Source: Granulimonas faecalis | GTDB lineage: Bacteria > Actinomycetota > Coriobacteriia > Coriobacteriales > Atopobiaceae | Reading direction: 5' to 3' | Assembly (NCBI RefSeq): GCF_022834715.1 | Contig: NZ_BQKC01000001.1 | Coordinates: 1,276,501 to 1,340,500 of the forward strand | DNA length: 64,000 nt | Part shown: positions 41,998 to 47,365 of the stretch, one piece after another | Layout of the letters: every line of letters starts with the position of its first letter | Position numbering within the stretch: position 1 is the first letter of the stretch | Position numbers and translations under genes: made by a program | Notes under the pieces: model-generated | The model's database searches: none | Told to the model about the DNA's origin: nothing | Seen by the model: the letters and a program-made list of their open reading frames with translations, nothing else

Positions 41998-42984
41998 CTA
42001 CGGCATCATGTTGTTCTTCTGGATGAGGGCGAAGAGGTCCTCGCCGCCGTCAGAAGGAACCTTCTTGGTGTCGAACGTGGTGCCGTTGTCGCGGAGCGCG
42101 ACGAAGGCCTGGACGTCCTGCTCGCTGACCGCGATGGCCTGCGAGATCATGGTCTTGCCGGCGGAGTGCGCCAGGGAGCCGACGTTGATGTGCTTGATGG
42201 GCACGCCGGCCTCCTCGACCGCGAGGGTGTCCTCGGGGTTCTCGAAGAGGACCAGGGCCTTGACGTCGCCGAAGCGCGGGTCGTTGTAGCACTTGACGAA
42301 CTGCGCGATGGTGGTGACGTTGGCCTTGACTCCCGGAGGGGCGGCCTCGACGATGAGCGACTTGCGCAGGTCGTCGTGGGCCACGGCGTCGGAGACGACG
42401 ATGATGCGGTTGCAGCCCACCGAGCGGGCCCAGTTGGTGGCCACCTGGCCGTGGAGCAGGCGCGAGTCGATGCGGGTGTGCACGAGCTTCATCTGGCCGT
42501 CGCCCACCACGGTGCCCTCGGGCAGCGCGGCGGAGCCGGCGGAGGAAGCGGCCGCGGCAGCGCCCCCCTTGGGCTTGGGCTGCAGCGACTCCGGCTTCAC
42601 GCGGACGCCGCGGCGGCCCTCGACGAACACCTTGGTCGCGATCTCGTGGGCGGTGCCCAGGGAGAAGCGGCCGGTGTAGGCCTCGATGAGCATGGGCAGG
42701 TTGAGCCCGGTGACGATGGCCCACTGGTCGTGGCCGTCGGCGAACGCGCTGCACTGGTTGAAGGGGGTGCCGCCCCACAGGTCGACCAGGAAGAGGACCT
42801 CCTCCTGGGCGTCCTTGTCGAAGCCGCTGACAGCCTCCTCCAGCTTCTTCCTGAAGTCGTCGGGGCCTTCGCTGGGCATCAGGGTGACCGCGGCCACGTT
42901 CTCCTGGTCGCCGAAGACCATGGAGCCGGACTGCTGGATGCCGGTGGCGAATTTGCCGTGACTTGCCAGGACAATACCTACCAT
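41998..42984 (-). CDS. manX: mannose-class PTS cytosolic component IIAB
   Basis: IIAB carries phosphate from HPr to the incoming sugar. The 328-residue protein has the IIA domain at the start, VGIVLASHGKF with phospho-His9, and LVDLWGGTPFNQ. A linker rich in Ala/Ser/Lys (about 128-160) leads to the IIB domain, HTRIDSRLLHGQVATNW with phospho-His178. The ATG at 42984 is preferred over GTG at 42987 because AGGAGG lies 7 nt before it. As first gene after a ~460-nt upstream region, it probably carries the operon's regulation. Confidence 0.96.
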   Translation of the reverse strand: MVGIVLASHGKFATGIQQSGSMVFGDQENVAAVTLMPSEGPDDFRKKLEEAVSGFDKDAQEEVLFLVDLWGGTPFNQCSAFADGHDQWAIVTGLNLPMLIEAYTGRFSLGTAHEIATKVFVEGRRGVRVKPESLQPKPKGGAAAAASSAGSAALPEGTVVGDGQMKLVHTRIDSRLLHGQVATNWARSVGCNRIIVVSDAVAHDDLRKSLIVEAAPPGVKANVTTIAQFVKCYNDPRFGDVKALVLFENPEDTLAVEEAGVPIKHINVGSLAHSAGKTMISQAIAVSEQDVQAFVALRDNGTTFDTKKVPSDGGEDLFALIQKNNMMP

Positions 42985-42987
42985 CAC

Positions 42988-43445: not shown

Positions 43446-44564
43446 CTAGCCCCTGGCGGACTCCAGCTCGTGGCCGAGGCGGGTGAAGGGCTCGTAGCCG
43501 TCGGCGGTCACCACGCCGGTGTCCTCGATGCGTACGCCGAACTCGCCAGGGATGTAGATGCCCGGCTCGATGGTCACGACGGACCCCTCGGGGACGGGCT
43601 CCTCCCACCGGAGGCTGAAGTTGGGGTCCTCGTGGATCTCGACCCCCACCCCGTGGCCAAGGCCGTGGCCGAAGTACTCGCCGTAGCCGGCCTCCTCGAT
43701 GACGCGCTGGGCGATGCGGTGGATGTCGGCGCCGACGACGCCGGCCCTGACGGCCGCGGCGGCCTCCTCGTGGGCCCGGCGCACGACGTCGTAGACCTCG
43801 CGCTGTTTCTCAGAGGGCTCCCCCACCACGAGGGTGCGGGTCATGTCGGCGTGGTAATCGTGGTAGAGGGCGCCGAAGTCCATGGTGACGAAGTCGCCCT
43901 CCCGCACGCGGTAGTCGCCGGGCTGGGCGTGGGGGTTGGCCCCCTGGGGGCCGGCGGCGACGATGGAGTCGAACGAGACGGCCTCGGCGCCGTGCTCGAA
44001 CATGGAGCGCTCGAGCTCCGCGCGGATCTCAAGCTCGCTCATGCCGGGGCGCACGTAGGAGCGGATGTGCTCCCAAGCCGCGTCGGTGATCTCCTGGGCG
44101 CGGCGGAGCAGGGCGAGCTCCTCGTCGTCCTTGACCATGCGCAGGCGCGAGATGGCGCCGTGGAGCCGGGGCATGAGACAGGCCCACGACTCGGCGTCGA
44201 GGCCGCGGGCGAGGTCGTCCACAAACCCCACGGCGACGGTGTCCTCCACCGCGGCCACGCAGGCCCGGGCGGAGGCGAGGGCGCGGGCGGCCCAGGCGGC
44301 GTGGGGCGTCCTCCCCATGTCGACCTCCCAGGGGCCGTCGGGCCCGAGGCGCTCCATGAAGGTGTTGTAGTAGCGCGAGTCGGTGTGGAGCAGCAGCGTG
44401 TCGGCCGTCACCACCGCGGTGTGGGCCACCTCGTCGTCGAAGGTGCGCTCGGCTCCGGTAAGCCACCTAAGGTCGGCGTTGTTGCGCAGGACCACGGCGT
44501 CGTAGCCCCGCTCCCCCATGAGGGCGCGCAGGCGCGCGACCCCTCCTTGCTGTGCCTCGGACAT
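43446..44564 (-). CDS. pepP: M24-family Xaa-Pro aminopeptidase/dipeptidase
   Basis: The enzyme removes residues next to proline from peptides in the cytosol. The 372-residue product has an N-terminal creatinase-like domain (ending about residue 135) and the pita-bread catalytic domain. Metal ligands are visible in TMDFGALYHDYHADMTRT (two Asp), FGHGLGHGVGVEIHE (His), VTIEPGIYIP (Glu) and GVRIEDTGVV (Glu). The ATG at 44564 follows GGGGAG. In many actinobacteria this gene is immediately upstream of efp; here the mannose PTS lies between. PepP versus PepQ cannot be decided from sequence alone. Confidence 0.92.
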   Translation of the reverse strand: MSEAQQGGVARLRALMGERGYDAVVLRNNADLRWLTGAERTFDDEVAHTAVVTADTLLLHTDSRYYNTFMERLGPDGPWEVDMGRTPHAAWAARALASARACVAAVEDTVAVGFVDDLARGLDAESWACLMPRLHGAISRLRMVKDDEELALLRRAQEITDAAWEHIRSYVRPGMSELEIRAELERSMFEHGAEAVSFDSIVAAGPQGANPHAQPGDYRVREGDFVTMDFGALYHDYHADMTRTLVVGEPSEKQREVYDVVRRAHEEAAAAVRAGVVGADIHRIAQRVIEEAGYGEYFGHGLGHGVGVEIHEDPNFSLRWEEPVPEGSVVTIEPGIYIPGEFGVRIEDTGVVTADGYEPFTRLGHELESARG

Positions 44565-44605: not shown

Positions 44606-45781
44606 TCACAGGATCGACCTCGCCGCGCACCACGCGTCGAGGTGCTCGGCGAGCACGGCGTCGTCCACGGCGGCCATGCGCACGCGCCCCACGGCGTGGG
44701 GCAGCACCACCATGGCGCGGTTGGTTCGGGCGAGCTCCTCCTCGCGGAAGGCGCGACCGAGCGCCGCCGGGTCGAGGGCGCAGGGCACCTCGGGCACCGA
44801 CAGGCGGTCGAGCAGGGCGTCCTGGGCGAAGACGAGGTCGACGTCGCCCTCCACGGCACCCACGGCGAGCCGTGCCGCGAAACGCAGGCCCTCGCCGAGC
44901 CGGAGGCCCCAGCCCACCCCGGGCAGGAAGCGCCCGAGGGCCCGGGCGAAGGTCTCGCCGTAGGAGAGCGACCGGCGCACGGCCACGGACGTGGACGCGT
45001 TGACGCGACCCACGCCGCGGGCGGCCTCGAGGGCCTGCCCGGCCATGGCCGCCGCGTCGCCGGCGGCCATGGCCTCCGAGCGCATCACGAGGGTGTTGAA
45101 GGCGTCGCGGGACTCGCACACGGCGGCCGCCACCATGGCGGCGCGGCCGGCGACGTTGCCCGGCGTGAGGGCGGCGATGCCCAGGGTCCCGGGCTCGGCG
45201 TAGCACATGGCCATGCGGCAGCGCGCCGAGACCATGGCCCCCTCGCCGCCCGAGGAGAGCGGCAGCGGCAGGGCAGGGCAGAGCACGAGCGCGTCGAGGG
45301 ACAGGGGCACGCAGGCCAGCGGGGTCCCGCCGCACCAGGTGCTCGCGGCGAACGACGCCAACGACAGCGTGGCCCTGCCCCCGACGGCCACGAGGGCGTC
45401 GGAGGAGGTGACGCCGGATGAGCCGAGCGCCTCCCAGAGGCCGGGCAGGCGCGACGCATCCGCGGCGTCGGCGGCCGGCACGTCCGGCAGGCGCCGCACG
45501 AGGAACCCGGCGTCGGTCACGAGGCGGCGGAGCGACTCCACGAGGCCCGGGTCCGCCCCCTCCTCCACAAGGAGGGCGGCGGTGCCGGTGCGGCCGCAGC
45601 AGACCCGCAGGTCGCGGCCGAACCTGTCGAGCACGCCGTCGCCCACCCGCACGTCGCACGAGGCGCCGTTGGCGGACACCGTCTGGCGCAGCGGGGCCAC
45701 GGCCCCCGCACCGGCGTCCGGGGAGGCCGGCGAGACCCCCTCGACGGCCCCGGCCGTGTCGTTCACGGTCTCCTCGCTCAC
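44606..45781 (-). CDS. AroB-like protein lacking the dehydroquinate-synthase metal site
   Basis: The 391-residue product has the fold and place of 3-dehydroquinate synthase, but its catalytic motifs are gone. The NAD loop GGG-x-x-GD-x-AGF reads GGRATLSLASF (134-144). The segment that should be SSVGGKTGVN reads CPALPLPLSSG. The metal histidine in GHTFGHA reads SYGETFARA (274-282), the HGE motif reads RLGEG, and the glutamate of AEV(I/V)K is absent. It is therefore probably not a working AroB. The GTG at 45781 overlaps the aroK stop by 4 nt, and aroK itself is intact. An alternative is a new activity or a structural partner of AroK. Confidence 0.75.
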   Translation of the reverse strand: MSEETVNDTAGAVEGVSPASPDAGAGAVAPLRQTVSANGASCDVRVGDGVLDRFGRDLRVCCGRTGTAALLVEEGADPGLVESLRRLVTDAGFLVRRLPDVPAADAADASRLPGLWEALGSSGVTSSDALVAVGGRATLSLASFAASTWCGGTPLACVPLSLDALVLCPALPLPLSSGGEGAMVSARCRMAMCYAEPGTLGIAALTPGNVAGRAAMVAAAVCESRDAFNTLVMRSEAMAAGDAAAMAGQALEAARGVGRVNASTSVAVRRSLSYGETFARALGRFLPGVGWGLRLGEGLRFAARLAVGAVEGDVDLVFAQDALLDRLSVPEVPCALDPAALGRAFREEELARTNRAMVVLPHAVGRVRMAAVDDAVLAEHLDAWCAARSIL

Positions 45782-46320
45782 AGCAGCCCCTCCTCCCAGA
45801 GCAGGGCGCCGCACTCACAGGCGACCTCCTCGAACGTCTTGCCGGTAATGATCACGCGATAGTCGCACACGCTCTCGTAGAGCGGGCGCCTGAGCTCGTA
45901 CACGTTGGCGGCGTGGGCGAGGTCGACGAGGTCGGGCCTGCGCCGCATGGACCGCATCTGGGCGAGGGAGTCCTCGAACGTGCCGTCGAGGAAGACCACG
46001 TGGCCGAGCTCCCCCATGAGCCTCCGGTTGCGCCCGCTTTCCACGGTGCCGCCCCCACAGGAGACAAGGAGCGACTTCTCGGCCTTGAGCGACTCGAGCA
46101 CCCCGGCCTCCGCGTCGCGGAACGCCGCCTCGCCCCTCGAGTGCCAGAGCACGGGCAGCGAGCCGTGGAGCCGGCGCTCGACGAGGCGGTCGGTGTCCAC
46201 GTAGCGCCGGTGGAACATGTGGCCGAGGTTGCGGGCCACCGTGGACTTGCCGGCGCCGGAGAAGCCCACGAAGAGCACGTGGTCGCAGTCGTCGTGCACG
46301 ACCATGCCGTCATGTTCCAT
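45778..46320 (-). CDS. aroK: shikimate kinase
   Basis: AroK phosphorylates shikimate at O3. The 180-residue product has Walker A VGFSGAGKSTVARNLG, the shikimate-binding DTD (where Asp34 lies in E. coli), GEAAFRDAE with its arginine, SCGGGTVES and the lid MRRRPDL with RRPLYES. All key residues are present, unlike the adjacent AroB-like protein. The ATG at 46320 follows GGAGGGGGAGCCCC. Context aroK-aroB-pepP is the standard actinobacterial order, but aroC, aroE and aroQ are missing here. Confidence 0.92.
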   Translation of the reverse strand: MEHDGMVVHDDCDHVLFVGFSGAGKSTVARNLGHMFHRRYVDTDRLVERRLHGSLPVLWHSRGEAAFRDAEAGVLESLKAEKSLLVSCGGGTVESGRNRRLMGELGHVVFLDGTFEDSLAQMRSMRRRPDLVDLAHAANVYELRRPLYESVCDYRVIITGKTFEEVACECGALLWEEGLL

Positions 46321-46350: not shown

Positions 46351-46839
46351 TCACCTGAACGATAGTATCACCGGTCCGAAGGCGCAGAGGAATGCGGCGA
46401 CGACGCCCGCGAGGCACGCCCACGGGCCCACGGCGAACGTGGCCCGCCCGCGCAGGGCGGCAACGGCCGCGCCGAGGCAGAGCCCGGCGGCCATGGCGGC
46501 CACGGCCGGCCCCCAGCCGAGGAGCGCGGCCCAGCAGCCGAGGAGCTTGACGTCGCCCATGCCGACCGCACCCCGGCCGAGGCGCCGGGCGCAGAGCTCG
46601 GCCGCAGCGGCGGCGGCCGTCACGGCGACGGCACCCACGAGCAGGGGGCCGGGGGCAGGAAGGTTGCCGGCGAGGGCGGCGAGCCACGGGAGCCCCGGGG
46701 AGAGCGGCAGGGAGAGGGCCCGGGCCATCTGGAAGGCCAGGGCGACGGCCGCCATGGCGGCCAGGAGGGCGTTGGGCAGCCTCCGCTCGCGGGCGTCCGC
46801 GACGGAGGCCCAGGCGGCCAGGGCGAGGAAGGCTGCCAC
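46351..46839 (-). CDS. A24-family prepilin peptidase (short form)
   Basis: The enzyme is a membrane aspartyl protease that trims type IV-pilin-like leader peptides. The 162-residue product has about six hydrophobic segments. The two catalytic aspartates lie in VADARERRLPN and in GMGDVKLLG, and there is no N-terminal methylase domain. The actinobacterial alaS-ruvX-mltG cluster carries such a gene at this place. The GTG at 46839 is chosen because upstream codons fall in the YqeG gene; no strong ribosome-binding site is visible. No pilin or secretion genes are in the window. Confidence 0.8.
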   Translation of the reverse strand: MAAFLALAAWASVADARERRLPNALLAAMAAVALAFQMARALSLPLSPGLPWLAALAGNLPAPGPLLVGAVAVTAAAAAAELCARRLGRGAVGMGDVKLLGCWAALLGWGPAVAAMAAGLCLGAAVAALRGRATFAVGPWACLAGVVAAFLCAFGPVILSFR

Positions 46840-46846
46840 GGCCGCG

Positions 46847-47365
46847 TCAGGGGCGGTAGGCGGGGTCGCCCGAGGCGGCCCGCTCGAACAGGCGGAAGAC
46901 GCGGGTGTACCAGAGCTCCTCGGTGGACTGCGGGTCAACGAGGATGGGGCGCACGCCGGCCAGGTTGGCGGCCATGACGTCGGTGAACACCTGGTCGCCC
47001 ACGAGCACCGTCTGCTCCACGGGCACGCCCATGGTCCCGCACGCGGCCCAGAGGGCGAAGGGCGCCGGCTTCATGGCGTGGTCCACCTTGGGCACACCCA
47101 GCTCGGCGGCGCTCGCGGCCACCCGAGTGCCGTGGAAGTTGTTGGAGACGAGGCAGAGGGCGAGGCCGGCCGCGCGGGCGCGGTCGAACCATGCCGCCAC
47201 CTCGGCGGGCGGGTGCTCTGCGTCGCCGGGGACGCAGGTGTTGTCGCGGTCGAGCAGCACGAGCCGCACGCCCTCGTCCACGAGGCGCCCCACGGGGATG
47301 TCGGGGACCGCGTGGTAGCGGGCCCACGGGCGGGTCAGGGGCGTGCCCCCGCGCTCGGCGCTCAT
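46847..47365 (-). CDS. YqeG-type HAD phosphatase
   Basis: The 172-residue product is a subfamily-IIIA HAD hydrolase. It has VLLDRDNTCV (nucleophile Asp and acid-base Asp; usual LLDLDNT), LCLVSNN (motif II), KPAPFALW (motif III lysine) and TVLVGDQVFTDVMAAN (motif IV). The substrate is unknown. The ATG at 47365 overlaps the mltG stop by 4 nt. In other actinobacteria aroE often occupies this place, so this gene may have replaced it. Confidence 0.87.
   Translation of the reverse strand: MSAERGGTPLTRPWARYHAVPDIPVGRLVDEGVRLVLLDRDNTCVPGDAEHPPAEVAAWFDRARAAGLALCLVSNNFHGTRVAASAAELGVPKVDHAMKPAPFALWAACGTMGVPVEQTVLVGDQVFTDVMAANLAGVRPILVDPQSTEELWYTRVFRLFERAASGDPAYRP

Follow-up and report, generated by a model that had tools for sequence, protein, structure and literature searches.

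What role is left for a shikimate kinase gene and an adjoining aroB gene when the rest of their aro locus has gone and the AroB product has lost its catalytic residues? This question was raised by a locus of Granulimonas faecalis, which we analysed within a 64,000-nt stretch of DNA (the window). A first-pass annotation had described the pair, here called aroK′ and aroB′, and had suggested that the organism lost de novo aromatic synthesis and kept both proteins for something else, or that a second aroB exists elsewhere. The coordinates and the 4-nt overlap of the two genes proved correct (Table 1), and aroE, aroC and aroQ are all missing from the locus, as had been claimed. On the minus strand aroK′ is followed by aroB′ and an M24 peptidase gene; upstream lie an A24 peptidase gene and four genes that we take, by their sequences, to be yqeG, mltG, ruvX and alaS, and that were used as tblastn queries. 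Further downstream, beyond pepQ, positions 41998-42987 (minus strand) hold a frame that by eye resembles a mannose-type PTS EIIA-EIIB fusion and that is also found in several relatives.

Table 1. Features of the aroK′-aroB′ locus, in positions of the window
Feature	Coordinates	Strand	Support
aroB′, putative pseudo-dehydroquinate synthase, 391 aa, GTG start at 45781	44606..45781	-	DHQS-fold model
aroK′, 180 aa, member of the shikimate kinase family with an RPD lid	45778..46320	-	PF01202, 102.8 bits
Overlap of aroK′ stop and aroB′ start, GTGA, 4 nt	45778..45781	-	
AroK′ lid motif R128-P129-D130, codons (RPL in typical shikimate kinases)	45931..45939	-	
AroB′ degenerate NAD loop GGRATLS, residues 134-140, codons	45362..45382	-	
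AroB′ variable N-terminal tail, residues 1-30, codons	45692..45781	-	
pepQ-like M24 peptidase, downstream of aroB′, inherited neighbour (start picked by eye)	43446..44564	-	PF00557, 246.9 bits
Context gene resembling A24 prepilin peptidases, on the upstream side of aroK′	46351..46938	-	PF01478, 37.5 bits

When searching the whole genome (2.23 Mb in two contigs, 96.28% complete), we found a complete aro cluster at C1:1210369-1219583, outside the window and ~100 kb from aroK′-aroB′. Its order is aroF (DAHP synthase)-tyrA-aroB-aroA-aroC-pheA-aroE/aroK-aroQ. In the profile search of this genome the second aroB reached 145.5 bits to PF01761, aroC 390.4 bits and the second shikimate kinase 109.5 bits, and the AroA assignment is backed by PF00275. 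AroE and the shikimate kinase of the cluster are fused in one frame of 456 aa (L003:12071-13441). The suggested second aroB was thus found within a complete cluster, and a loss of aromatic synthesis in G. faecalis has to be rejected. The complete pathway is one of the two findings that the first-pass annotation had named as jointly refuting its reading. Because the complete cluster is present elsewhere, aroK′-aroB′ is not needed for the pathway.

The history of the locus was followed in related genomes, sorted into Atopobiaceae-type (f1), Coriobacteriaceae-type (f3) and Eggerthellaceae-type (f2, a name we inferred) groups; genera of f1 and f3 include Olsenella, Atopobium, Thermophilibacter, Collinsella and Enorma. 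The Eggerthellaceae-type genomes have mltG-yqeG-aroE-aroC-aroK-aroB-aroQ-pepQ at the same locus, with an intact AroB (six sampled loci; no aroE match in L042), and in two loci of group f4 aroC-aroK-aroB-aroQ adjoins pepQ. In the Atopobiaceae and Coriobacteriaceae types the locus is reduced to aroB′ before pepQ in 12/12 sampled loci, with aroK′ in 11/12 (window excluded). The 16 AroB′ rows of our tree formed a single clade (100/99), which a relic from group f6, L205, joined as one side of the branch (98/94). The 16 rows of new-cluster AroB formed a separate clade (100/100), which rules out that AroB′ is a recent duplicate of the real aroB. Likewise, the 13 AroK′ rows formed a single clade (97/100) and grouped with the kinases of the ancestral locus (99/98). 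By these sequence comparisons, AroB′ descends from the old, vertically inherited aro locus that is still intact in the sampled Eggerthellaceae-type genomes.

The relic of group f6 (L205:7337-8335, genome G256) lies at the old locus with no adjoining aroK. Its AroB keeps GGG, the loop Asp, GGK and one metal His, and has lost the metal Glu to Ala and the other metal His to Gln; G256 likewise has a second aro cluster. Judged by these residues, it is an apparent intermediate towards AroB′. The arrangement of the pair is also old. An in-frame start yielding the 4-nt overlap was present in 61/61 distinct genomes with both genes (the start nearest to the 4-nt offset was chosen and duplicates of a genome were removed). 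Since the overlap is found at some ancestral loci as well, it was inherited; the adjacency of aroK′ and aroB′ is inherited too and holds no functional information.

We then compared AroB′ with active enzymes. Aligned with the real AroB of the same genome, GGRATLS replaces the NAD loop GGGVTGD, the GGK loop is gone, and the three columns of the DHQS metal ligands read A, E and W vs E, H and H. With 31.2 bits, AroB′ fell far short of the cut-off of the TIGR01357 (aroB) profile, which is 305. PF01761 gave 23.7 bits for the protein (cut-off 24.2) and 24.9, just above the cut-off, in the six-frame genome search. The losses reported by the first-pass annotation were therefore confirmed in the window, and the same pattern recurs in 51/51 aligned AroB′, which is more than chance. 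This alignment comprised the window and 50 of 71 frames; repeat copies from one genome, close relatives and the over-extended frames L021 and L029 were omitted. Neither an intact GGG nor the metal Glu was found in any of the 51 sequences, the two metal His were present in 1/51 and 0/51, and the Lys of the GGK-type (SVGGK-type) loop was present in 3/51, with the Gly pair lost. All 20 checked sites are intact in 8/8 ancestral-locus AroB and 16/16 new-cluster AroB. Of these sites just two are generally retained in AroB′, the first Gly of the loop and the R264-type Arg (49/51). The K250-type Lys has become Arg in 45/51 and is Val in the window; the roles of both residue types are those of the A. 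nidulans enzyme. At the same time AroB′ has gained residues that are fixed or almost so, among others R32, Q33, S140, W149, C150, P172, R355 and R368, of which W149 and R368 occur in 51/51.

An AF2 model of AroB′ built from the 51 sequences reached a pLDDT of 93.8 and a pTM of 0.91, and predicts the two-domain DHQS fold. The best-ranked solved structures were DHQS (5eks_B, Z 38.3, rmsd 2.7 over 350 residues, 17% identity). Beyond DHQS, the Foldseek and VIA searches matched sugar-phosphate cyclases, glycerol dehydrogenases and iron-type alcohol dehydrogenases, which are kin by fold only. Residues 1-16 had a pLDDT <50, and the N-terminal tail differs in sequence and length between relatives. AroB′ thus shares the whole predicted fold, the ancestry and the aroK-aroB-pepQ locus with 3-dehydroquinate synthase (AroB, PF01761 + PF24621, TIGR01357), but differs from it in the NAD loop, the GGK loop and the metal ligands.

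The kinase had been described as keeping every active-site residue. This holds for the P-loop GxxGAGK, DxD, FR, CGGG and RxPLY, but not for the lid, which reads RPD instead of RPL. The substrate and lid arginines R68, R128 and R144 of the window correspond to the R58, R117 and R136 types, and the D34-type residue is also kept. The RPD lid was found in 61/61 distinct genomes (the window by eye, 60 by script) and in a kinase copy of group f5, whereas 8/8 ancestral-locus kinases have RPL. In the RPLL consensus of shikimate kinase lids (PMC2593004), the position of the Asp corresponds to the first Leu. In the M. tuberculosis enzyme Leu119 contributes to the lining of the shikimate pocket, and the lid has a key residue in Arg117 (PMC7144000). 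Judged from the alignment, the change from RPL to RPD is a change in the shikimate pocket. Because the remaining shikimate-contacting residues look normal, AroK′ may still be a shikimate kinase. It scores below every NCBIfam equivalog cut-off.

Altered members of the shikimate kinase family (AroK, PF01202), with which AroK′ shares the P-loop, DxD, GGG and the substrate arginines and from which it differs by the RPD lid, have precedents. Plant SKL1 and SKL2 are neofunctionalised shikimate kinase duplicates according to the sections of PMC2593004 available to us. From the same sections, SKL1 acts outside the pathway and, like AroK′, has kept the ATP site with altered acceptor or lid residues; however, SKL1 lost the lid and proximal arginines, whereas AroK′ keeps the arginines and changes a lid Leu. 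Unlike for AroK′, no AroB partner of SKL1 or SKL2 is described in those sections (PMC2593004). A second precedent is Desulfovibrio DvMF_0971, formerly 'shikimate kinase' and now a homoserine kinase (PMC5764234). Its genome has a true shikimate kinase besides this further gene of the family, whose product acts on a new alcohol. AroK′ scores below the cut-off for this homoserine kinase type (NF040667, 75.8 bits against 197). Finally, the bifunctional SK/DHQS fusions (PRK14021, PRK13951) consist of the same two folds in the same kinase-DHQS order as aroK′-aroB′; here, in contrast to the PRK14021 fusion, there are two overlapping genes and an apparently dead DHQS (51 and 42.8 bits vs 565). No paper on a DHQS pseudo-enzyme or on an AroK′-AroB′ pair was found in the open-licence PMC literature. 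As the sequences present it, the pairing of a conserved pseudo-DHQS with an altered shikimate kinase is a variant of known families and not a new kind of system.

Both genes are widely kept. AroB′ was present in 78/79 Atopobiaceae-type and 52/52 Coriobacteriaceae-type genomes, and AroK′ in 72/79 and 52/52, respectively (presence was tallied by hand, and the AroB′ of G248 was detected only by the AroB′ alignment profile). The dN/dS ratios, computable by NG86 in 18/20 pairs for each gene, ranged from 0.069 to 0.449 for AroB′ and from 0.024 to 0.217 for AroK′, establishing purifying selection on both. AroB′ evolves faster than AroK′ and, in most pairs, than the neighbouring pepQ. Six genomes have AroB′ without AroK′ (G092, G098, G191, G285, G240 and G248); in four of genus g6 and in G240 the real pathway genes are present. 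Conversely, G225 has AroK′ without AroB′, with pepQ directly after aroK′, and G130 has neither. Since the two were lost independently, an obligate AroK′-AroB′ complex is unlikely.

Taken together, the data support a shikimate kinase and DHQS pair that left chorismate synthesis and took on a new use. With somewhat better than even confidence we regard the pair as a repurposed remnant of the old aro locus, in which a non-catalytic AroB′ accompanies a kinase AroK′ that works outside chorismate synthesis. An ancestor of Atopobiaceae and Coriobacteriaceae would have come to hold a second, complete aro cluster, after which aroE, aroC and aroQ would have left the old locus and aroK-aroB would have turned to a new use. 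AroB′ would then be a folded pseudo-enzyme that no longer binds NAD and metal as DHQS does; given its partly kept basic substrate-domain site, it probably binds some small anion and leaves it unconverted. AroK′ probably works as a P-loop kinase, with an acceptor pocket that the lid Asp would change. Shikimate is probably not its substrate, or not the only one, and it most likely phosphorylates a small alcohol, shikimate-like or other. In this process AroB′, the product of the coupled gene, would most likely bind a ligand or act as a regulator. We put forward more tentatively, as having somewhat less than an even chance, that AroK′ and AroB′ form a new module of metabolism or signalling in nearly all Atopobiaceae and Coriobacteriaceae. 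Its two parts would be a kinase, with a substrate similar to shikimate yet distinct from it, and a pseudo-DHQS sensing its ligand, and the module would be needed even without the pathway.

The pathway is still present in the majority of pair-bearing genomes (aroC in 78/79 Atopobiaceae-type and 50/52 Coriobacteriaceae-type genomes). This, together with the D34-, R58-, R117- and R136-type residues kept in AroK′, would fit a different reading, with AroK′ as an additional genuine shikimate kinase and AroB′ regulating aromatic synthesis. AroB′ might do so, for instance, through binding of DAHP or shikimate, or by forming a pair with the real AroB (DHQS is a homodimer). We consider this reading rather unlikely, as the real cluster already includes a kinase, within the AroE fusion, and the RPD lid is invariant in the 61 genomes. 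It is also at odds with two genomes in which the tested pathway enzymes were not found. The first, G171 (one contig, 99% complete), keeps aroK′-aroB′ including the overlap. It showed no match to any of the enzymes searched for, namely AroC, real AroB, PF00793 DAHP synthase, AroQ-II and AroE; its one shikimate kinase is AroK′ and its single EPSP-family gene was taken as MurA. In the second, G248 (1.0 Mb), the search for the same set of enzymes gave no match, and no shikimate kinase was found. G248 keeps an open AroB′ frame, modelled as one folded protein (pLDDT 89.9). This AroB′ is strongly diverged (branch 2.47) and has lost W149 and R368, so that its retention weakly supports a separation from the pathway. 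A third genome, G243, lacked matches to AroC and real AroB and had one EPSP-family gene; it was not counted as pathway-less, since AroQ, DAHP synthase and a partial AroE match were present and an assembly gap (90 contigs) is likely.

Less probable again, and in our judgement improbable, is that AroB′ is an enzyme with a new catalysis on the old fold, forming a short pathway in which AroK′ makes or uses its phosphorylated substrate. The lineage-fixed W149, C150, R355, R368 and others, the partly retained basic pocket and the co-translation of both genes would agree with such an enzyme, but no conserved set of acids, His or Cys resembling a new active site is evident, and the independent losses of the two genes do not fit a joint pathway. 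That the two genes are relics of the old locus in the course of decay, as the faster evolution of AroB′ than pepQ in most pairs and the losses in G130 (both genes) and in six genomes (AroK′) might suggest, is very improbable, and AroB′ as a decaying pseudogene was rejected, given dN/dS values far below 1, frames that are open in nearly all genomes, the kept 4-nt overlap, the near-universal presence of AroB′ and its confidently predicted fold.

The proposal that the pair was kept for something else, as first raised from the window, is thus well supported by conservation, selection, tree, fold and G171. If the repurposing of the old aro locus is correct, AroB′ would be a DHQS pseudo-enzyme conserved in genera that are common in the gut (Olsenella, Atopobium, Collinsella), and its retention spans two families of mostly gut-living bacteria. 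AroK′ offers a concrete test of a substrate change in a shikimate kinase through one lid residue. Automatic annotation of the two genes as aroK and aroB would lead to wrong metabolic models, worst in pathway-less genomes, where it would create a false partial pathway.

Some further observations concern the aro clusters themselves. In two Coriobacteriaceae-type genomes, G080 and G048, the new cluster (L195, L196) lies only ~10 kb from the relic pair (L043, L044). Nine Eggerthellaceae-type genomes of one genus, g37 (G072, G162, G196, G206, G221, G226, G249, G251 and G260), have two chorismate synthase matches each. The literature search found no mention of a frame in which a PTS EIIB domain (C[ML]TRLR motif) is joined through a variable linker to the type II dehydroquinase AroQ. 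Such a frame is present in 10/10 Atopobiaceae-type clusters examined (L003:13595-14584, that is C1:1218594-1219583, in G. faecalis; L191-L194, L199-L202 and L210) and absent from the two Coriobacteriaceae-type clusters inspected. Pfam confirmed both domains in 6/6 frames tested, and through this frame the shikimate pathway may be coupled to PTS phosphorylation.
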